Made by a program: the position numbers and the translations under genes | Part shown: positions 7,380-18,675 of the stretch, piece by piece | Layout: each line of letters opens with the position of its first letter | How positions within the stretch are numbered: position 1 is the stretch's first letter | Notes under the pieces: generated by a model | What the model saw: the letters and a program-made list of their open reading frames with translations, nothing else | Told to the model about the DNA's origin: nothing | Databases searched by the model: none | Assembly: GCA_023384575.1 (NCBI GenBank) | Contig: JAHDVP010000007.1 | Location: forward strand, 109,012 to 163,141 | Origin: Acidobacteriota bacterium | GTDB lineage: Bacteria; Acidobacteriota; Vicinamibacteria; Vicinamibacterales; JAFNAJ01 | Direction: 5' to 3' | DNA: 54,130 nucleotides

Positions 7380-8150
7380 ATGAGCCTCGACCCCACGCGC
7401 CCCGCGCTCGTCGCCGATCACCTCGTCAAGACGTTTCCCGGCGTGCACGCCGTCGACGACGTCAGCTTCGTCGTGCACCCGGGAGAGATCGTCGGCCTGC
7501 TCGGCCCAAACGGGGCGGGCAAGACGACCACCCTGCGGATGCTCGCGGGCATCCTCACGCCCGACGGCGGGCGCGTGCTCGTCGGCGGCGTCGACATGCG
7601 CGACGACCCGCTGGCGGCCAAGCGACGCCTCGGCTTCCTGACGGGTGACACCCACCTCTATCAGCGGCTGTCGCCGCGAGAGGTGCTGCGATTCTTCGGC
7701 CGGCTCTACGAGATGGACGACGCCTCCCTCGGGCCGAAGATCGATCGCAGCGTCGACCAGCTCGACATGGCGAGCTTCGCCGACCGCCCTTGCGGCACTC
7801 TCTCGTCCGGCCAGAAGCAGCGTGCCAACATCGCGCGCGCCTTCCTCCACGACCCCGACGTGCTCATTCTCGACGAGCCGACGACGGCGCTCGACGTCAT
7901 CAGCGGGCAGTTCATCGTCGAGGCGATCCGTCGCGAGCGGGCCGCGGGTCGTGCCGTGCTCTTCTCGACGCACGTCATGGGAGAAGCCGAGTACCTCTGC
8001 GACCGCATCCTGCTGATGCACCAGGGCCGGGTGTTCGACGCCGGCACGCTCGAGGAACTGCTCGCGCGCTCGGGCCAGTCGAATCTGACCGATGCCTTCC
8101 TCGCCCACGTCGGCCGAACCGACCTTGCGGCGACCGCGCCTGGAGCGTAA
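7380..8150 (+). CDS. ABC transporter ATP-binding protein, NatA-like
   Basis: This 256-residue ATPase drives the membrane subunit encoded immediately downstream. Walker A GPNGAGKTT is at residues 42-50, the signature region is LSSGQKQR, and Walker B plus D-loop is VLILDEPTTALD, followed by the switch histidine in FSTHVMGEAE. The sequence resembles NatA and other ABC-2 export ATPases. The stop at 8150 is four bases before the next ATG at 8155, so the two genes form one operon. Sodium or drug export is the usual family role; the substrate here is unknown. Confidence 0.93.
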   Translation: MSLDPTRPALVADHLVKTFPGVHAVDDVSFVVHPGEIVGLLGPNGAGKTTTLRMLAGILTPDGGRVLVGGVDMRDDPLAAKRRLGFLTGDTHLYQRLSPREVLRFFGRLYEMDDASLGPKIDRSVDQLDMASFADRPCGTLSSGQKQRANIARAFLHDPDVLILDEPTTALDVISGQFIVEAIRRERAAGRAVLFSTHVMGEAEYLCDRILLMHQGRVFDAGTLEELLARSGQSNLTDAFLAHVGRTDLAATAPGA

Positions 8151-8154
8151 CGCG

Positions 8155-10272
8155 ATGCGCCTCGCCATCGTCCTCACGATCTTCCGGAAGGAACTGCACG
8201 AGACGCTGCGCGATCGGCGCACGCTCGTGATGATGATCGGCCTGCCGGTCGTGCTCTACCCGCTGATGCTCATCGGGATCAGCAAGCTGCAGGAAGCTCG
8301 AACGGAGGCGACCGAGGCCCGCCCGTCGGTCGTCGCGATCTGGGGCGACGTGCCGCCGGCGCTGGTGCGCGCGCTCGAGGACGGGCCGAGTCTTACCCCT
8401 CGCGTCGACCTCGGGCTCGATCCGCCCCTCGCCGACGACCTGCGCGCCGGGCGCCTCGTCGTCCCGCCGCTCGTCGAGACCGACGAGCCTCCACGCCAGT
8501 CGCGGCGACCCGACCAGGTCCGGAGGGAGCAGGACAACCCCGTGCTCGACGCGGCGCGGGCCCTCGTGACCAGCCGCCGGGCCGACGCGGTCGTCGTCGC
8601 GTGGTCGGGCCTCGAGGCTGCCGTCGCCGACGATGATGCCGGTCACCTGTCCGTGTACTTCGACTCGGTGCGAGACGATTCGCGTACGGCGCGCGAGCGG
8701 CTCGCCTCGGCGCTCGACACCTACCGCGCGTCGGTCAGGCAGCAGCGACTGCTCTCCCGCGACCCGCCACTCGCCGACGGCTTCTTCTCGGTCTTCGACG
8801 TGCTGGTGCGCGACGTGTCGCCGCCGGCCCGCCAGGCCGGCTTCATCCTCGGCACGTTCCTCCCGTTCCTCCTCGTGTCGCTGTCGCTCTTCGGCGGCTT
8901 CTACCCGGCCGTCGACCTGACGGCCGGCGAGAAGGAGCGGGGCACGATGCAGACGCTGCTCTGCGCGCCCATCCGCTCGGCGGAGATCGTGGTCGGCAAG
9001 TTCCTCACCGTCTGGACCGTGTCGCTCGTGGCCGCCGGCGCCAACGTCGCGAGCCTCGCGCTCACGATGGCGCGCGTGCTGCCGGCCGGGCAGCTCGAGG
9101 TGGCGTGGTCGACCTACGGCCTCACGGCGCTGATGCTCGTCCCCGTCACGCTGACGACGACGGCGACCTTCCTCGCGGTGGCGGTCTTCGCCAAGGACTT
9201 CAAGGACGGACAGAACTTCCTCACGCCCGTCTACATGCTGCTCGTCATGCCGTCGGCCGTCACGATGCTCCCCGGCATCGAGCTGAACCCGTGGACGGCG
9301 TTCGTGCCCATCGTCAACATCGCGCTGCTCATCAAGGCCCTGCTCGTCGGCGAGGCGGCGGGGGAGTTGATGTTCCTCACCCTGGTGGGGTCGGCCGCGT
9401 ACGCATCGCTCGCCGTCGCGCTGGCCGTCAGGGTCTTCCAGCGCGAGCAGATCCTGCTCGGAGGAAAGGAGTCGGCGCGGGCGGTGCTGGGCCTCGAGCG
9501 GCGGTCGGGCGGCGTGCCATCGCCGATGGTCGTGACGTCGCTCTTCGCCGTGGTCCTGGTCCTCGCCTTCTACGGGAGCCTGCTGCTCGAGGCGCGGAGC
9601 GTGCCGGTGATGCTGCTCGTCACGCAGTACGGCTTCTTCCTGCTGCCGGCGCTCGCGGTCGTCTGGGGCCTCGGCTACTCGCCGCGGGCCACGCTGTCGT
9701 GGCGGCTCCCTTCGGTCGCCGGCCTCACCGCCGCCGTGCTGGTGGGCGTTTCGGCCTGGGCCGTGGTGGGTGGCGTGGTCATGCGGCTCGCGCCTCCACC
9801 CGACTCCCTGGTCCGGGCCCTCGAGCGGGTGCTGATGCTCGGCGACGAGCCGATGCCGCTCTGGGTGGTGCTGGCCGTCATCGCGGTCACGCCAGCCATC
9901 TGCGAGGAACTGTTCTTCCGCGGCGTGGTGATGAGCGGGCTGCGCCGGCTGGGGCAGTGGCAGGCGATCGGCATCTCGTCGCTGCTGTTCGCCGTCGCGC
10001 ACGCGTCGATCTACCGGCTGCTGCCCACCTTCGTCCTCGGCGTCCTGCTGGGATTCCTCGTGTGGAAGACCGGGTCGATTCTGACCGGGATGGTCGTCCA
10101 CGCGCTCAACAACGGCATCGCGGCGACCTTGACAAAGTCGCCCGACCTCGCGGCCTCGCTCGGCGTGCGGGGCGACACGCTCGACTGGACGATCACGGGC
10201 GCGGCGCTCGTCCTGACGGCCATCGGTCTGGCACTCGCGATGTCGCTGCGCCCACACGTCGACCCAGGCTGA
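8155..10272 (+). CDS. NatB-like ABC-2 permease fused to a CPBP intramembrane protease domain
   Basis: This 705-residue polytopic protein has two parts. Residues 1-450 are a NatB/ABC-2 permease: an N-terminal helix after FRKELHETLRDRRT, a large extracytoplasmic loop, and a helix bundle with the AGEKERGTMQTLLCAP coupling motif. The C-terminal part (about 560-690) is a CPBP/Abi (CAAX-protease-like) domain with EELFFR at 584-589, then FAVAHAS and a final HALNNG, which supply the conserved Glu-Glu-Arg, His and His/Asn residues. The fusion is complete and in frame. CPBP domains can cleave transmembrane peptides, so linked processing and export is possible but not shown. The gene converges on the HD-GYP gene at 10288. 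Confidence 0.9.
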   Translation: MRLAIVLTIFRKELHETLRDRRTLVMMIGLPVVLYPLMLIGISKLQEARTEATEARPSVVAIWGDVPPALVRALEDGPSLTPRVDLGLDPPLADDLRAGRLVVPPLVETDEPPRQSRRPDQVRREQDNPVLDAARALVTSRRADAVVVAWSGLEAAVADDDAGHLSVYFDSVRDDSRTARERLASALDTYRASVRQQRLLSRDPPLADGFFSVFDVLVRDVSPPARQAGFILGTFLPFLLVSLSLFGGFYPAVDLTAGEKERGTMQTLLCAPIRSAEIVVGKFLTVWTVSLVAAGANVASLALTMARVLPAGQLEVAWSTYGLTALMLVPVTLTTTATFLAVAVFAKDFKDGQNFLTPVYMLLVMPSAVTMLPGIELNPWTAFVPIVNIALLIKALLVGEAAGELMFLTLVGSAAYASLAVALAVRVFQREQILLGGKESARAVLGLERRSGGVPSPMVVTSLFAVVLVLAFYGSLLLEARSVPVMLLVTQYGFFLLPALAVVWGLGYSPRATLSWRLPSVAGLTAAVLVGVSAWAVVGGVVMRLAPPPDSLVRALERVLMLGDEPMPLWVVLAVIAVTPAICEELFFRGVVMSGLRRLGQWQAIGISSLLFAVAHASIYRLLPTFVLGVLLGFLVWKTGSILTGMVVHALNNGIAATLTKSPDLAASLGVRGDTLDWTITGAALVLTAIGLALAMSLRPHVDPG

Positions 10273-10287
10273 TCCGGAACGGCCGGC

Positions 10288-11889
10288 TCAGGCCGCCTCA
10301 CTCTTCTCGCCACGGGCGAGGACGCGCAGGAACGCCTCGACCACGAGCGGGTCGAACTGCCGGCCCGCCTCGCCGCGGATCACGCGCACGGCGGCGTCGA
10401 TATCGAGCCCGCAACGGTACGGGCGGTTCGACGTCATGGCGTCGAAGGCATCGGCAACGGCGAGCACGCGGGCCGAGACGTCGATCTCGTCGCCGCGCAG
10501 GCCGAGAGGATACCCGCCGCCGTCGAAGCGCTCGTGGTGCTGACCCACGATGGGCAGCAGGTCGGCGAAGGGCGCAATCGGCTCGAGGATGCGTACGCCG
10601 CGCATCGGATGCTCCTGCATCAGGGCCAACTCACCGGGCGTCAGCGGACCGAGCTTGTCGAGCACCGCCCCGGGAATCGCGAGCTTCCCGATGTCGTGCA
10701 GCAGGCCGCCGCGGCGCAGGCAGGACAGCCGCGCAGCCGGCAAGTTCAGTTCCTGCCCGATCCGCACCGCGAGCTCGGTCACCCGCTCGGAGTGGCCGGC
10801 GGTCCACGACGACTTCGCGTCGATCGCACGAGCGAACGCATTCAGCGTGCCGAGGTGCATCGCCTCGAGCTCGCGGAACTGGGTCTCGAGGCCGTTCGCC
10901 ATCGCGTTGAACGAGCCGGCAAGCTCCTCGAACTCGTCACCGCTCCTGACGTCGACCCGTGTCGAGAAATCGCCTCGCTCGAGGCGTATGGTGGCCTGAC
11001 GCAGCCGGTCGAGAGGCTGGAGGCTCGATCGAATGAGCCGGAGGCTGAGCAGGACGACCAGCCACAGTGTCGCCAGCAGGGTCAGCAGGAGACTCCGCGA
11101 AAAGGCCGTACTCGCCGCGAGGACCTCGTCGGCCGCTCTCGTGAAGACGACCGTGATCGGCGGTAGATGGTAGGGCGTTTCCAGAGGCAACGTGCGGTAG
11201 GCGACAATGAAGTTCTGCTCACCCTGTCGCCAGGTATCGTGGCCCACGCCCCGCGCGAGGAGCGCAGCCGTCAAACGCGGGCCGAAATCGGGCGGCACGG
11301 CGAGCGAGGTCGCGAGGATGCGTCCCCGCTCGTCGAGCACGGTGACGGCAGTCTCGTCTCGCACGGTGTCGCGGTTGTCGAGCGCCCACAGCCATGCGTC
11401 GTTGACGAGCACCGCGACACGCCCGTGCACGGTCGCGATCTCCGCGACCACACCGGCCGGGTCGAGCGAGCCAGCGATGCCCCCGCGCTCGAGGTGCAGC
11501 CGCCGTGTGTCCGACGCCTCCAAGGCAAACGGCAGACCGCTGACGCTCCGCTGCCGGCCCGCGTGGTCGATGACGGTGACGGCCAACACGGCGGCGTCAT
11601 TGCCGTCGAGGCGGTCGAAGAGCGCAGCGACCGCCTCGTAAGGGCCTCCCGCCTCGGTGAGGGTCGCTGCCGCTCTCAGGTGCGACTCCACGTACTGCAG
11701 TCTGGCGACGGCCGCGAGACTCCACGATTTCAGCTCCTGCTCCAGATGCCGGACGGCCTGCTCACGGAGTTGCCCGCGAACGTCCCGCAGCGAGATGAGA
11801 GCGATGAGGCACAGCGGCGCGAGGACCGACAAGACAAACATCACGAGGATCCGGCGCGCGACGCGACTCCGCAGAAGGGATGCCGTCAT
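10288..11889 (-). CDS. Membrane HD-GYP phosphodiesterase with sensor and HAMP domains
   Basis: This 533-residue inner-membrane signalling protein probably degrades cyclic di-GMP. Its order is a transmembrane helix (13-35), a periplasmic Cache-like sensor (about 40-260), a second helix (264-286), HAMP (about 285-337), then HD-GYP. The HD pair is in LLHDIGK (396-402) and the GYP region is HHERFDGGGYPLGL (451-464). Metal-binding His and Asp residues look intact, so activity is expected. The upstream gene on the same strand (11906) also has a HAMP-like region and ends 16 nt before this ATG, which suggests an operon. Confidence 0.92.
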   Translation of the reverse strand: MTASLLRSRVARRILVMFVLSVLAPLCLIALISLRDVRGQLREQAVRHLEQELKSWSLAAVARLQYVESHLRAAATLTEAGGPYEAVAALFDRLDGNDAAVLAVTVIDHAGRQRSVSGLPFALEASDTRRLHLERGGIAGSLDPAGVVAEIATVHGRVAVLVNDAWLWALDNRDTVRDETAVTVLDERGRILATSLAVPPDFGPRLTAALLARGVGHDTWRQGEQNFIVAYRTLPLETPYHLPPITVVFTRAADEVLAASTAFSRSLLLTLLATLWLVVLLSLRLIRSSLQPLDRLRQATIRLERGDFSTRVDVRSGDEFEELAGSFNAMANGLETQFRELEAMHLGTLNAFARAIDAKSSWTAGHSERVTELAVRIGQELNLPAARLSCLRRGGLLHDIGKLAIPGAVLDKLGPLTPGELALMQEHPMRGVRILEPIAPFADLLPIVGQHHERFDGGGYPLGLRGDEIDVSARVLAVADAFDAMTSNRPYRCGLDIDAAVRVIRGEAGRQFDPLVVEAFLRVLARGEKSEAA

Positions 11890-11905
11890 GATGCCGCCTT
11901 GCCGG

Positions 11906-13057
11906 TCAGTAGTCCCGAGCCAGACCGATGAAGCCCCCGCTGTTGGCCCGTACCACGTCGTCCTGGCTGACCTTCGCGGTCAACGGTGAGGCCGACTTGC
12001 CGTCGCGGCCGGCGCTGTAGAGGTCGAAGTCGGAGTTGATGGGCACGAGGTTCCTGTCCTTGCGTGCCTGCCCAGTCACGTTGCGACCGCCGCCCCCCTT
12101 GCCCGGTCCCGACGGCGAGGGTGCCGTGCCGCTCGTGTCGATCCGCAGATACTCGTACGGATGCCCCCAGGGATCGATTGGCGGTGGGCTGGCGACCTCG
12201 GCCAGCGTCGCCGGGAGGTGGCCGCGCTCGTTGCGGAACATCTGGATCGCGCGGTCGAGCGCGTGGATCTCGCCGATCGCCCGCGTCACGCGCGCCTTCT
12301 CGACCGCTCCCCAGTAATGCGGAAGTGCCAGCGCCAGCAGTGTCCCGAGGAGCGCACTGGTCACCAGCATTTCGACGAGGCTCATGCCGCGCTCGTCGCG
12401 CGTCGCCGCGGCCGGGCCGCTTCCCGGTACCGGAACGACGGGGACTCGCGCGGCAGCGTCGACAGAGGCAGGCGCCGTGCGACCGGTCCGGTCGGTCACG
12501 AGGACCTCGAGCGTCTCACCGAGCCGGGCCAGGCTCGCGTCGAGGCCCGACGCGACACGCTCGTCGAGGCTCTCGCCCCGCAGTGTGGCCACCTGCCGTA
12601 CCACGTCGACCGCGGCGGCCTTCGTCGCGTCGACCCGGTCACGGAGCGCGGCGATGGCCGTCTCGAGGGCTCGGGCCTCGTCCCACAAGTAGTCTCGATC
12701 GCGAATGCGCACGCGTTGCGTCAGGTCGCCCCGCGCCAGACGCTCGAGCACCACGCGGAAGCGGTAGAGCGGGCCGGCGATCCGGTGGGACATGAACACG
12801 ACCCTGGCCGCCTCGAGCAGGAACAGCAGGCCGAGGCCAGGCCAGAAGTGTTCGTGGAGCGCCAGCAGCGACGTCGCCGCCCATGCCGGTGTGCCGGAGG
12901 GCGCGTCGCGGTTCACCAGGTAGACCAAAGGGCCCACGATGAACGCGGACGCGAGCGCGACGTGGACGAACAGCCCCAGCAGGCTCGTGAGAACGTAGCG
13001 CAACTGGAACCCGTCGACGACGACCCGTCTGCGCCGGCCCAGCCACTGCGCCTGCAT
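11906..13057 (-). CDS. HAMP-type membrane protein fused to a GspG-like pseudopilin
   Basis: This 383-residue protein joins two normally separate modules. Residues 1-145 have two hydrophobic helices (about 20-48 and 62-90) and a HAMP-like segment (HRIAGPLYRFRVVLERLARG). After a Pro/Ala linker comes a type IV prepilin sequence, RDERG/MSLVEM, with predicted cleavage after Gly224 and Glu at +5, a hydrophobic N-helix (225-247) and a GspG-like head with DPWGHPYEY and a Gly/Ser-rich C-end. A topology of two crossings puts the cleavage site in the cytoplasm, where prepilin peptidase acts. The ATG at 13057 is the only sensible start. Type II secretion or pilus function is inferred; no other Gsp or Pil gene is in the window. 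Confidence 0.8.
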   Translation of the reverse strand: MQAQWLGRRRRVVVDGFQLRYVLTSLLGLFVHVALASAFIVGPLVYLVNRDAPSGTPAWAATSLLALHEHFWPGLGLLFLLEAARVVFMSHRIAGPLYRFRVVLERLARGDLTQRVRIRDRDYLWDEARALETAIAALRDRVDATKAAAVDVVRQVATLRGESLDERVASGLDASLARLGETLEVLVTDRTGRTAPASVDAAARVPVVPVPGSGPAAATRDERGMSLVEMLVTSALLGTLLALALPHYWGAVEKARVTRAIGEIHALDRAIQMFRNERGHLPATLAEVASPPPIDPWGHPYEYLRIDTSGTAPSPSGPGKGGGGRNVTGQARKDRNLVPINSDFDLYSAGRDGKSASPLTAKVSQDDVVRANSGGFIGLARDY

Positions 13058-13352: not shown

Positions 13353-15080
13353 TCAGCTCTGGAGCCTGCGGAGCAGGTCGGCCAGTCGCGCGTTCACCTC
13401 ACCGAAGCTCTCCCTGGCGGCGGCGAGACGATCCCGCTCGGTCCTGACGAAGCGGGCGTACGGGGCGATCCCCGCCTCGACGCGGCCCACGCTCGCGTCG
13501 ATCTCCTCCTCGAAGTGACGATGCAGGGCGCGCGACAGTCGATCGCGCAGGTCGGACACCTTGTGGCGCATCTCCTGCTTCGCACGGGCGCGCCGGCCCG
13601 GGATCACGAAGAGTCCGATCGCGGCCAGCACGCCCGCGAGCGCGAGGCCGGTGATGTCGGCGGCGGCGGTGGTCGCGGCCACGGTGACGGCGGTGCCGAC
13701 GCCGGCGGCGGCCACCTGCAGGGCCGCGGCCGCCGCCACGGCATCGCGCGCCTTGTCGGCGATGGCCGAGGCCTCGCGCGTGCGGTCGTACGTGTCGACG
13801 ACGCGCTGGGCCTCGCGTCCGACGGCCTCGATGAGCCTCGACCGGTCGTGGTGAAACCGGCCTCCGTCATCGCCGACGATGCGCTCGCGGTGCCGCCGGC
13901 GGCCCTCGGCGAGATGGTCGGTCACGGCCTGCCACTGGCGGAAGTCGGCATCGACGAGCCAGTCGATGAGCGCGTCGACTTTTCGCTCGATGACCTGCGG
14001 GGTGTCAGCCACCACCTCGCGGACGAACCCCTCCTGCACGCGACTGCGAGTCAGCAGGTCGAAGACGCGTCCGAAGCGAAGCGTCTCGTCGAAGTAGGCG
14101 TGGCCCCGCCGCTCCATCTCGAGCAGCTGATTGTCGACGTCGGCCACGCGATAGGCGAAGTCGCGGCGCATGTCGTCCCGGTAGGCCGACAACTGCCGCT
14201 CGACGTCGTCGAGCAGCCGCACGTCGTCGGCCAGGAGCCCGAGGCGGTCGTCGATGGCCTGCAGCTGACGGTCGGCGAGCCGCCTGGCAACGCCGAGGGG
14301 ACTCTGCAGCTTGAGCCTGATCCGGCTCGCGTCGGCGAGCATGGCCTCGACGAACCGCCGGAGGGCGACGAACCGGCTCGGATCGGCCTCGGAGGCCACC
14401 GCCGAGCCTGTCCGCCGCGCGAGCCTGACGCTGACCGGGAAGATCGGCGGGGTGATGCCGAGCAGGCGCTCCGCGCTCGTTCCGACGAACCGCACGACCT
14501 CGTCGATGTCCTCGTCACGCTCGAGAATGTCGATCTTGTTGAGGACGACGACGATCTTCTTGCCCCAGTCGCGCACGAGCTCAAGAAACGCCCGCTCGCT
14601 CTCCGTGAAGGGCCGGTCGACGCTCGTCAGGAACAGGACGAGGTCGGCGCGTGGCACGAAACGCTCGGTCACGGCCTGGTGCTCGCGGACGATGGCGTTG
14701 GTGCCGGGCGTGTCGACCACGGCCACGTCGCGCAGACGCTCGACCGGCGTGGTCACGACGAGGACGCCGTCGCTCCCGAGCGTGGTGGCCGGCACCTCGC
14801 CGTGGCGCAGGAGCGTCACCTGCGAGGTCGTCGGCGTCACGCCCTCGGCCAGCACGTCGGCCCCGAGGAGCACGTTGACGAAGGCGCTCTTGCCCGCGTT
14901 GAACTCGCCCACCACGACGAGCAGGAACAGGTCCTCGAGGTCGGCCATCGCCCGAGCGAGCACCTCGCGGTCGTCCACGGCCGCGTCGACCGCGACGAGG
15001 GCCCGCTGCAGATGGGCGAGCACCTCGCGCTCTTCACGCAGGAGGTCGTCGAACTCGGGCGGCAGCGTGCGCGAAGCCAT
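13353..15080 (-). CDS. Dynamin-like GTPase (bacterial dynamin-like protein)
   Basis: This 575-residue GTPase has the dynamin motifs: P-loop GEFNAGKS (58-65), switch region TPTTSQVT, DTPG (123-126) and NKID (181-184). Long helical segments follow (about 260-450), then a hydrophobic paddle-like region (about 455-500) and a final helical part. Such proteins bind and remodel membranes, acting in membrane repair, cell shape or phage-stress responses. The ATG at 15080 is followed directly by the domain; longer in-frame extension is non-homologous. It is single rather than paired with a partner dynamin. The head-to-tail distance to the hydrolase gene on the other strand is 129 bp. Confidence 0.92.
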   Translation of the reverse strand: MASRTLPPEFDDLLREEREVLAHLQRALVAVDAAVDDREVLARAMADLEDLFLLVVVGEFNAGKSAFVNVLLGADVLAEGVTPTTSQVTLLRHGEVPATTLGSDGVLVVTTPVERLRDVAVVDTPGTNAIVREHQAVTERFVPRADLVLFLTSVDRPFTESERAFLELVRDWGKKIVVVLNKIDILERDEDIDEVVRFVGTSAERLLGITPPIFPVSVRLARRTGSAVASEADPSRFVALRRFVEAMLADASRIRLKLQSPLGVARRLADRQLQAIDDRLGLLADDVRLLDDVERQLSAYRDDMRRDFAYRVADVDNQLLEMERRGHAYFDETLRFGRVFDLLTRSRVQEGFVREVVADTPQVIERKVDALIDWLVDADFRQWQAVTDHLAEGRRRHRERIVGDDGGRFHHDRSRLIEAVGREAQRVVDTYDRTREASAIADKARDAVAAAAALQVAAAGVGTAVTVAATTAAADITGLALAGVLAAIGLFVIPGRRARAKQEMRHKVSDLRDRLSRALHRHFEEEIDASVGRVEAGIAPYARFVRTERDRLAAARESFGEVNARLADLLRRLQS

Positions 15081-15209
15081 GGTTCCTACACTACACCCTG
15101 AAACGCCGTCTGCGACGGGTCCGGACCGAGGGGGGCGCCGAGGGCATCCTGCGCACGCCGCCCGACGCGAGTTCGTGCGACGGGCGCGACAGCGTAAGAT
15201 CGACCGACG

Positions 15210-16211
15210 ATGGATCCCGTCTGCCACACCCTCGTCGGCGCGGCGCTCGCCGAGTCGGGCCTCAAACGCACCACCGCGCTCGCCACCGCCACCCTGATCA
15301 TCGGGGCGAACGCACCCGACATCGACGCCCTGACCTACTTCTTCGGCGACTCGTTGCTCTGGCGGCGCGGTTGGACGCACGGCGCCCTGGCCCTGGTCGT
15401 CCTGCCGGTCGTGCTGACGGCCGTCATGCTGGCATGGGACCGGCTGGTCCGCCGGCGGCGGGGTCGCCAGCCCCCGCAGGCCGCCCGTCCGGCGCCGCTG
15501 CTGGGCCTCGCCGCCCTCGCCGTGCTGACGCACCCGACGCTCGATTGGCTGAACAACTACGGCATGCGCTGGCTGATGCCGTTTGACACCACCTGGTTCT
15601 ACGGCGACACGCTGTTCATCATCGATCCGTGGATGTGGGCGGCGCTGGGGCTCGGTGTGCTCATGTCGCGGGCGCGGGCTCGCCGCGCGGTCAGACCGGC
15701 GGGCGGCGCGGGACGTCCGGCGCGGGTCGCCCTCGCGCTGACCCTCGTCTACGTCGTCGCCATGCTGGTCGGGAGTCGATACGGGCGGACCCTGGTGCTC
15801 CGCGACCTGGCTCGTGTCGGGCACCCTGCCCCGGTCCGGCTGATGGTCGCCCCGACGTTCGGCACCCCGTTCCGGAAGCACGTGGTCGTGGAGGTCGACG
15901 ATGCGTACCTGACCGGCACGGTGCACCTTCTCGACGGGGCCGTGCGCCTCGGTCGGACGACGCGATCGCGCGAGACCGATCACCCGGCCATCGAGGCCGC
16001 GACGGCGCGCCCGGAGGCGCGAGGTATCGTCGGCTGGGCCAGGTTTCCCGTCTACGTCGTCGAGGAACGGGCCGACGCCTGGCTCGTGCGCATCGACGAT
16101 GCGCGCTACGCGCCGCCCGACGACCGGTCGTGGGCCGCGACCGACGTCGTGGTGCCGAAGACGGTCACCGGGGCCGCGACGACCCCATCAACCGCAGTGC
16201 CGGACTCGTGA
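15210..16211 (+). CDS. DUF457/YdjM-type inner-membrane metal-dependent hydrolase
   Basis: This 333-residue membrane protein begins MDPVCHTLVGAALAE and continues with a helix and the APDIDALTYF motif, then WRRGWTHG and LTHPTLDWLN; His and Asp residues in these positions are typical of LexA-regulated YdjM-like metal-dependent hydrolases. About four transmembrane helices fall in residues 1-200; the last 130 residues form a soluble, probably periplasmic tail. The actual substrate is unknown in the family. Its last 47 bases overlap the 3' end of the convergent RluA gene, an unusually long tail-to-tail overlap. Confidence 0.88.
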   Translation: MDPVCHTLVGAALAESGLKRTTALATATLIIGANAPDIDALTYFFGDSLLWRRGWTHGALALVVLPVVLTAVMLAWDRLVRRRRGRQPPQAARPAPLLGLAALAVLTHPTLDWLNNYGMRWLMPFDTTWFYGDTLFIIDPWMWAALGLGVLMSRARARRAVRPAGGAGRPARVALALTLVYVVAMLVGSRYGRTLVLRDLARVGHPAPVRLMVAPTFGTPFRKHVVVEVDDAYLTGTVHLLDGAVRLGRTTRSRETDHPAIEAATARPEARGIVGWARFPVYVVEERADAWLVRIDDARYAPPDDRSWAATDVVVPKTVTGAATTPSTAVPDS

Positions 16212-17392: not shown

Positions 17393-17836
17393 ATGACCGG
17401 CTGGCAGGACGACGACGTGCGCGTGGTGCGTGAAGGACGGGGCTGGAGCCTCGTGAGGGCCGGCGAGGTGCTCGCCGAGCCGTTCCTCGAGCTGTCCGCG
17501 GCCATGCGGGCCGGTCGCCGGGTGGCGCGAGACGCCGGCGTCGATCTCCACATCGTCGATCGCTCGGGCCTCGCCGGCACGGCGCGCTACCGTCCGAGGA
17601 TGAATGGCCTGCGGCCGGCCGACCGCTTTCCCGTCCGCTTGCGGTGGGCGGCGCCACGGCACGCCGAGTTCGACTACCTGCCGGAATTGCCGGAGCGGAT
17701 CGACTGGTTCGACGTGGCGTCGGGGCTCCAGGTGCGGGAGCGACGTGTCAAGTTCGAGGCCGAAGACGACCGCGATGACGACGGGCGGTGGGTCTACACG
17801 GAGTGCGCGGAGGTTCCATCGCACCGAAGGCCATGA
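17393..17836 (+). CDS. Small cytosolic protein, possibly DUF2188-like
   Basis: The 147-residue product begins MTGWQDDDVRVVREG. The pattern of an aromatic-rich beta strand, a mid 'W.LVRAGEVLAEPFLELSAAM' segment and a helix ending in a His-Ile-Val-Asp stretch resembles DUF2188 proteins, which are uncharacterised. No signal peptide or membrane segment is visible. A GAGAAG sits just before the ATG. The gene is 230 bp upstream of the PEP-CTERM gene and reads in the same direction. The DUF assignment is tentative. Confidence 0.6.
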   Translation: MTGWQDDDVRVVREGRGWSLVRAGEVLAEPFLELSAAMRAGRRVARDAGVDLHIVDRSGLAGTARYRPRMNGLRPADRFPVRLRWAAPRHAEFDYLPELPERIDWFDVASGLQVRERRVKFEAEDDRDDDGRWVYTECAEVPSHRRP

Positions 17837-17914
17837 GCGGTACGCCACGGGTCTGGGCGGCCCGAGAGGGTGCGGTCGAACCGTGTCGGTTGAGGTGGCC
17901 GGTCGAGGTGGGCT

Positions 17915-17942
17915 GGCCGGGAACCGGCCGCTGTTGTAGAAT
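17915..17942 (+). promoter_or_regulatory. Possible promoter with palindromic operator upstream of the PEP-CTERM gene
   Basis: TAGAAT at 17937-17942 fits a sigma70 -10 hexamer, while the -35 position is poor (TGGCCG). The spacer contains a perfect palindrome, GGCCGG-GAA-CCGGCC (17915-17929), which could bind a repressor or activator. The start codon is 125 nt downstream. PEP-CTERM genes often use sigma54, but no clear GG/GC pair was found. Confidence 0.3.
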
Positions 17943-18066
17943 AGGGAGCCTTCGTTTCTGGCATCGTCCGGCGGACGCTCCCCCCCGTCGCTGCTGCTGT
18001 GAGGTGCACGACCCCGCCTGCGGGTTCGAGGTCGTAGCATCCGGCAACCGATTTCTGGAGAGCGTC

Positions 18067-18675
18067 ATGCGTCTGATGCCACTCGTCCTGGCCCTCGTGG
18101 GCCTGGTGCCTGCCTCCCTCACGGCGTCCCCAATCGTTCCCTCGTCCGGTGGCTATGGCTGGGCCGACGGCCAGACCAGGGGGTTCGTCCTCACCTGGGA
18201 TGGGCAACAGGCGGTCTTCTCGGTCGACGGCATCGGCAGCGCCTCGTACGGCTCGGTGGCCGAGTGCTGTGGCGACCTGCTGGACCGGGCGGGTGAGATC
18301 AGGCCCGGCGGCTACTTCGAGTTGAGCCGTCTCGTCATCAACAGCATTCCGCTGAGCACGACCGTCCAGGACACGCTCGATCTGGCGATGCTTCGCCAGA
18401 CGGCGCTGCACAACCTCGGCCGCCTCTCCGGCGACCTCACGTTGCGCTGGACCACGCCGGGGGGAACGCCGCCGACCGACGATCCTTACGGCAACCACCT
18501 GGTGCCGACCAGCCGGTACGCGAGCATGATGGTGCGCGGCGAGCCGGGCTACGGCGCCCTGACGTCGACGGCCGTGACCGGTCCGCCGCCGCAAGTCCCC
18601 GAGCCGACCACCGCGCTGCTCGTCGGCCTGGGCCTGCTCGGCGCGGCGAGCCTGGCCCGCCGGCGCCTTCGCTGA
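18067..18675 (+). CDS. PEP-CTERM sorting domain protein
   Basis: This 202-residue secreted protein has an N-terminal signal peptide (MRLMPLVLALVGLVPASLTA), a mature domain of about 150 residues of unknown fold, and a C-terminal PEP-CTERM tail: VPEPTTALL, a hydrophobic helix and the basic end ARRRLR. The tail is cut by an exosortase (EpsH/XrtA type) during export to the cell surface or extracellular matrix. No exosortase is in the window. Earlier in-frame starts are rejected because they lack a signal peptide at the right place. The gene is followed 21 bp later by the NamZ-like gene. Confidence 0.88.
   Translation: MRLMPLVLALVGLVPASLTASPIVPSSGGYGWADGQTRGFVLTWDGQQAVFSVDGIGSASYGSVAECCGDLLDRAGEIRPGGYFELSRLVINSIPLSTTVQDTLDLAMLRQTALHNLGRLSGDLTLRWTTPGGTPPTDDPYGNHLVPTSRYASMMVRGEPGYGALTSTAVTGPPPQVPEPTTALLVGLGLLGAASLARRRLR

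Follow-up and report, generated by a model that had tools for sequence, protein, structure and literature searches.

The conversion of the state of a pilin or a pilus to an intracellular signal is incompletely understood, and the cases that have been studied are complex pilus machines. Membrane signaling proteins can also be modulated by a separate protein that is encoded beside the receptor, as in LuxP-LuxQ and YfiR-YfiN. A precedent for the contact of a pilin with a sensor in the membrane is the Pseudomonas aeruginosa pair PilA-PilS (PMC6058289, citing Kilmury and Burrows 2016). The pilus passages of a review of c-di-GMP inputs (PMC8846402) cover PilA-PilJ, PilY1 and minor pilins with FimS-AlgR, and T4P alignment proteins with a diguanylate cyclase; two-component systems that recognize pilus subunits are listed there among the putative mechanisms. 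No one-to-one pseudopilin-receptor gene pair appears in the pilus passages of this review.

The locus described here is located in a window of 54,130 nt (the whole stretch of DNA that was analyzed) from an Acidobacteriota bacterium (GCA_023384575.1, contig JAHDVP010000007.1, positions 109,012-163,141 of the forward strand). It probably represents one form of a pseudopilin-coupled receptor module that is widespread, and in which the fusion protein encoded in the window would be cleaved and the pilin would modulate the receptor. The relevant features are the following:

10288..11889, minus strand: receptor gene, 533 aa, with the architecture TM - dCache-like periplasmic domain - TM - HAMP - HD-GYP
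10345..10839, minus strand: HD-GYP domain, receptor residues 351-515, with HDIGK and HHERFDGGGYP motifs
10885..11037, minus strand: HAMP domain, receptor residues 285-335, identified by Pfam
11107..11793, minus strand: dCache-like domain, receptor residues 33-261, matching many dCache domains at Z about 14-16
11906..13057, minus strand: fused ORF encoding a HAMP-like membrane protein and a GspG-fold prepilin, 383 aa, ATG start
11909..12385, minus strand: mature pseudopilin, residues 225-383, with the family signature DPWGxPYxYL ... RKDxxLVPINSDFDLYSxGxDG ... DD
12368..12400, minus strand: putative prepilin peptidase site RDERG/MSLVEM, residues 220-230, predicted cut after Gly224
12386..12484, minus strand: disordered Ala/Pro-rich linker, residues 192-224, AlphaFold pLDDT below 50 at 192-204 and 213-222
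12488..13057, minus strand: N part, residues 1-190, with two TM helices (about 23-41 and 71-89), a HAMP-like segment and a coiled coil, homologous to stand-alone genes elsewhere

Upstream of the fused gene, on the same strand and about 300 bases away, there is a gene for a dynamin-family GTPase (13353-15983, minus strand). Elsewhere in the window, a single ORF (8092-10272, plus strand) encodes an ABC-2 type permease together with an Rce1-like (CPBP) protease domain, and the protein encoded at 17788-18675 (plus strand) carries a C-terminal PEP-CTERM sorting motif.

The preliminary description of this DNA placed a Cache-HAMP-HD-GYP protein 16 nt from the fusion, and the gap (11890-11905) is exactly that; the Cache domain yields no Pfam Cache match and is recognized by its fold, a double Cache fold between the two TM helices (pLDDT of the dCache model, 92.9). 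The output domain of the receptor matches HD_5 (1.4e-38), contains the HHExxDGxGYP motif, and is predicted to be a c-di-GMP phosphodiesterase of the HD-GYP type. Related loci were retrieved with the fused protein or with its pilin part alone, and not with the receptor. Among the 80 family members scoring at least 150 bits, two located at contig ends were left out; in 75 of the 78 assessable loci (counts of loci, not independent events), the receptor is encoded directly downstream of the pilin on the same strand, most often with the start of the receptor domain within about 60 bases. Each of the three exceptions has its own character: in L163, a diverged HD-GYP receptor follows the pilin; L060 has two copies in tandem, of which the second has the receptor and the first is the exception; and in L066, only 691 bases remain. 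The members come from at least five phyla (Pseudomonadota, Nitrospirota, Acidobacteriota, Gemmatimonadota and Methylomirabilota) and also from genomes labelled delta-proteobacteria. The same pair, annotated as a prepilin beside an EAL-domain protein, is present in Legionella adelaidensis and on a Comamonadaceae plasmid. Across 396 Acidobacteriota genomes, the pilin was found in 15 (G289 counted), the receptor domain in 18, and both in 13. At least two genomes (G223 and G310) have the receptor domain without the pilin, an observation that counts against the module. The receptor domain, then, can occur alone and the pilin rarely occurs without the receptor, so that the dependence is asymmetric.

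The output end of the receptor is exchanged between lineages. Apart from the window, HD-GYP domains terminate the receptors of L152, L155, L160, L077, L074, L044, L060 and L161; class III nucleotide cyclases are found in L153 and L154, histidine kinases, with or without receiver and Hpt domains, in L043, L058, L084 and L097, and GGDEF-EAL in L053, L076 and many Nitrosomonas. Because the outputs vary while the pilin and the dCache-HAMP front remain the same, the pilin follows the sensor end of the receptor rather than its output. Neither pilus assembly nor secretion (gsp) genes belong to the conserved shared neighborhood of the loci read. Prepilin peptidase genes are present in all 14 module-bearing genomes tested, including that of the window, which also encodes T4P/T2SS-type platform proteins elsewhere.

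The preliminary description took the neighborhood to suggest sensory control of pilus or secretion assembly. The link to a receptor is borne out; as to the direction of the signal, the receptor is the constant partner and its output varies, which favors the pseudopilin as an input of the receptor at least as much as control of pilus assembly by the receptor. The reverse arrangement, in which the dCache domain senses a small molecule and the resulting second messenger controls the neighboring pseudopilin as an effector, seems to us unlikely. Small ligands are usual for dCache domains, which this domain matches in fold, and the possibility that its ligand is a small molecule with no relation to the pilin counts against the proposed module. 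Furthermore, pili are known to be under c-di-GMP control. One example is PMC4624765. Nevertheless, the pilin stays constant while the output passes from phosphodiesterase to cyclase to kinase, whereas a messenger-dependent pilin would be expected to track the output, and in the loci read pilus assembly genes do not travel with the pair.

The fused frame of 383 residues is genuine. The architecture claimed previously, two TM helices and a HAMP-like segment joined to a prepilin in one frame, holds. The Pfam matches to N_methyl (220-245) and T2SSG (250-284) are both above the cut-off. The AlphaFold model, for which fused and split relatives were aligned, has confident helices in both halves, namely helices 16-49 and 56-108 and a HAMP-like pair (125-159/166-190) in the N half, and, in the C half, the pilin helix (227-278) with a small beta domain after it, with the disordered linker immediately before the cleavage site. 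A Foldseek search with the fused model gave no match below E 0.001; the GspG and HAMP matches came only from a second look with VIA. The sequence RDERG/MSLVEM reads as stated earlier and is a motif of the class III prepilin-like proteins (type IV filament superfamily), with Gly224 at -1, a hydrophobic residue at +1, Glu at +5 and a hydrophobic helix thereafter; the cut is predicted after Gly224. The cytoplasmic location assigned to this site is supported by the predicted TM topology.

The preliminary description had allowed for the possibilities that the ORF was a misassembly or a frame-joined pair of genes, and that homologs always keep the two parts apart. Neither is the case. G001, a genome of the same family as that of the window, encodes an independent, same-frame fused homolog (L164, 429 aa, 43% identity), and three Nitrospira assemblies contain fusions of 452-495 aa (L032, L072 and L097), which rules out the former; these genes are also exceptions to the latter, although in most homologs the HAMP and pilin parts are separate adjacent genes. 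Among 175 genomes of the Nitrospira family, 55 have the pilin; judged by the length of the open frame, three of these are fused and the rest have shorter frames. A further copy, L031 (JAHDVQ010000010.1; G003:C57), is 100% identical to the window over 21 kb (21,149 bases), fused ORF included, and may share source data, so it was not counted as independent evidence. The MAG into which this contig was binned has been placed in a different genus of the family, suggesting cross-binning. In a tree of 42 loci, built on their joined N and C domains, the fusions form two sets that lie apart, and two changes between the fused and split states are needed; the window and G001 rows are on long branches, and their exact place is therefore less sure. 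The sample contains at least two independent fusion events.

The N part belongs to a conserved family of two-helix proteins. Its Pfam HAMP match (88-122; E 0.014, 16-17 bits) is below the cut-off of 25, which counts against the module, and such a weak match is seen in 4 of the 17 members of the N-part family; the comparison with the HAMP structures of CpxA and Aer2 gives Z of about 6, a range common for helical bundles. The probable HAMP identity of the N part is thus based on the predicted fold and the family alignment, not on the Pfam score. Of the 80 loci, 17 have a HAMP gene 5' of the pilin, as a separate gene in 12 and fused in five, and in all 30 loci of the Nitrospira family that were read closely the order is HAMP gene(s) - pilin - receptor. 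The best reading of the HAMP protein is that of an accessory regulator in pilin-linked systems; its gene is an accessory in some lineages. Similar HAMP genes directly adjoin pilins outside the family (L092, L093, L239 and L243), and HAMP-pilin pairing may be wider than the present family. Nine loci from Nitrospirota, Methylomirabilota and Gemmatimonadota have a small lipoprotein-like gene, about 150 codons long, next to the module (e.g., L060:6451-6846), and in L060:6451-10056 the lipoprotein-HAMP-pilin set is duplicated in tandem ahead of a single receptor.

The HAMP part had been viewed as a giant leader or a retained sensor. Considering that the two genes are normally separate and only occasionally joined, it is better read as one half of a cleavable two-protein precursor. 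Conceivably, the fusion could stay uncut, with the HAMP part remaining joined as a membrane-anchored sensor subunit unable to enter a filament; the fusion arose twice and persists, and a permanent link could be useful. We nevertheless find this quite improbable, given that Gly at -1 and Glu at +5 are kept in all five fused proteins, including those of Nitrospira, that the site is in a linker modeled as disordered and accessible, and that the parts are made separately in the great majority of relatives. Comparably small is the chance that most of the pseudopilin is made by internal initiation, which would turn the long frame into a translational detail rather than a functional fusion. An in-frame GTG at residue 187 of the window protein, with GAGG upstream, is a possible separate start of the pilin, which would have a 38-residue leader, and this counts against the module; possible in-frame starts near the site occur in other fused genes as well, and in split relatives the HAMP and pilin genes often overlap by a few bases. 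The candidate starts, however, vary in position and codon from one fused gene to another, and most of them have no clear ribosome-binding site.

The pilin part, described earlier as GspG-like, shows the GspG fold, yet its score stays below the cut-off of the GspG model. With the equivalog TIGR01710 (cut-off 88.85 bits), the whole fusion scores 47.4 bits and the pilin part 51.8 bits, over model positions 1-62 only. In structural comparison, the C part (residues 249-383) aligns to EpsG (3fu1) with a moderate Z of 7.7 over 91 residues at 30% identity, and to PulG (5o2y) with Z 6.7, the identity to these two being 26-30%; the fold is accepted despite the moderate Z because the sequence identity supports the match. 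Compared with GspG proteins (EpsG, PulG and XcpT), the prepilin motif and the C-terminal fold are shared, with 26-34% identity over 86-91 aligned residues, whereas the signature RKDxxLVPINSDFDLYSxGxDG is the family's own and the gene is linked to a receptor, not to gsp genes. The alignment of 39 diverse family members has 17 invariant columns, with the Glu invariant, and, in the region that corresponds to the C-terminal calcium-site loop of GspG, it contains invariant acidic residues. Members of the family score 150-204 bits, compared with at most about 80 for other pilins; in the 396 Acidobacteriota genomes, the members are full length, score 156-204 bits and are set apart from other pilins. 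In the G289 member, a Gly-rich insert split the match into two pieces; read as one stretch, it scores 149 bits. Such an insert, immediately before the RKD motif and very variable in length, is present in the window, G001, Nitrospira and G289 (window 12109-12160, L164, L072 and L136). A PF08334 search of the window's own genome gave no match and missed the fused gene itself, and hence is uninformative on other GspG genes. The C part thus is a member of a GspG-fold subfamily and not GspG, the canonical form being ruled out by the model score and by the gene context, where a receptor adjoins and gsp genes are absent. A role as a spare major pseudopilin in a type II secretion or type IV pilus machine, with the receptor as a neighbor by coincidence, as the GspG fold, the partial GspG/T2SSG profile matches and the platform proteins elsewhere in the genome might suggest, is highly improbable in view of the adjoining receptor at nearly all assessable loci, the conserved neighborhood without secretion genes and the scores below the GspG cut-off.

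Returning to the pseudopilin-coupled receptor module, its core would consist of a dedicated GspG-fold pseudopilin and a downstream dCache-HAMP receptor with a lineage-swapped output, joined in some lineages by a small two-helix HAMP protein encoded upstream, the gene for which, in the window, is fused in frame to the prepilin gene. Upon insertion of the fusion, the HAMP part, the linker and the cleavage site would all be exposed to the cytoplasm, and the prepilin peptidase of the cell would cut after Gly224, releasing the HAMP protein and leaving a mature pseudopilin of the normal kind. One cut would free both proteins, so the fusion would be nearly neutral, and its two origins become explicable. 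The mature pseudopilin would sit either in the inner membrane or, in a pilus or pseudopilus built by the T4P machinery of the cell, at its base, and would touch the periplasmic part of the receptor, its transmembrane part, or both, such that the abundance or the assembly state of the pseudopilin sets the receptor output. The HAMP protein may tune the signal by pairing with the receptor HAMP domain or with the pilin. A more general proposal, which we put forward tentatively, is that the dedicated pseudopilin is the sensory subunit of a modular receptor of multiple phyla that reads filament assembly, the level of pilin in the membrane or surface contact, whichever messenger or kinase operates inside; in the window, a regulator and a sensory pilin would be made as one precursor split by prepilin peptidase.

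In the open-licence full texts searched, there is no description of a dedicated pseudopilin-receptor pair with exchangeable outputs or of a cleavable HAMP-prepilin fusion. The view that the design is unlike any well-described protein accordingly stands as far as these papers go; the design is not a one-off, as the fused homologs in G001 and Nitrospira demonstrate. Sensing via pilins is already known, and these results point to the conserved, private pseudopilin-receptor pair and the HAMP-prepilin fusion as apparently undescribed. A two-gene unit of one pseudopilin and one receptor with an exchanged output would isolate the pilin-to-signal question in a testable system, and many "orphan" pseudopilins that carry a GspG annotation, among them those of Nitrospira, Nitrosomonas and Nitrotoga, would gain a role. 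The fused form would provide a convenient assay, with a membrane regulator tied to prepilin processing in one polypeptide.

With LuxP-LuxQ and YfiR-YfiN, the module shares an accessory protein encoded next to the receptor, but in the module this protein is a predicted substrate of prepilin peptidase with a pilin fold. As in the T4P surface sensing systems treated in the pilus passages of PMC8846402, pilus parts would feed second-messenger or two-component signaling; the systems in those passages, in contrast, rely on components of working pili and on separately encoded receptors. In PilA-PilS, as proposed for the module, a transmembrane sensor reads a pilin subunit that lies in the inner membrane, and the output of the sensor changes. 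PilS, however, is a kinase, and what it reports on is the major pilin of a complete pilus system, whereas in the module a dedicated pseudopilin, whose contact with the receptor we infer, travels with a dCache-HAMP receptor of variable output.
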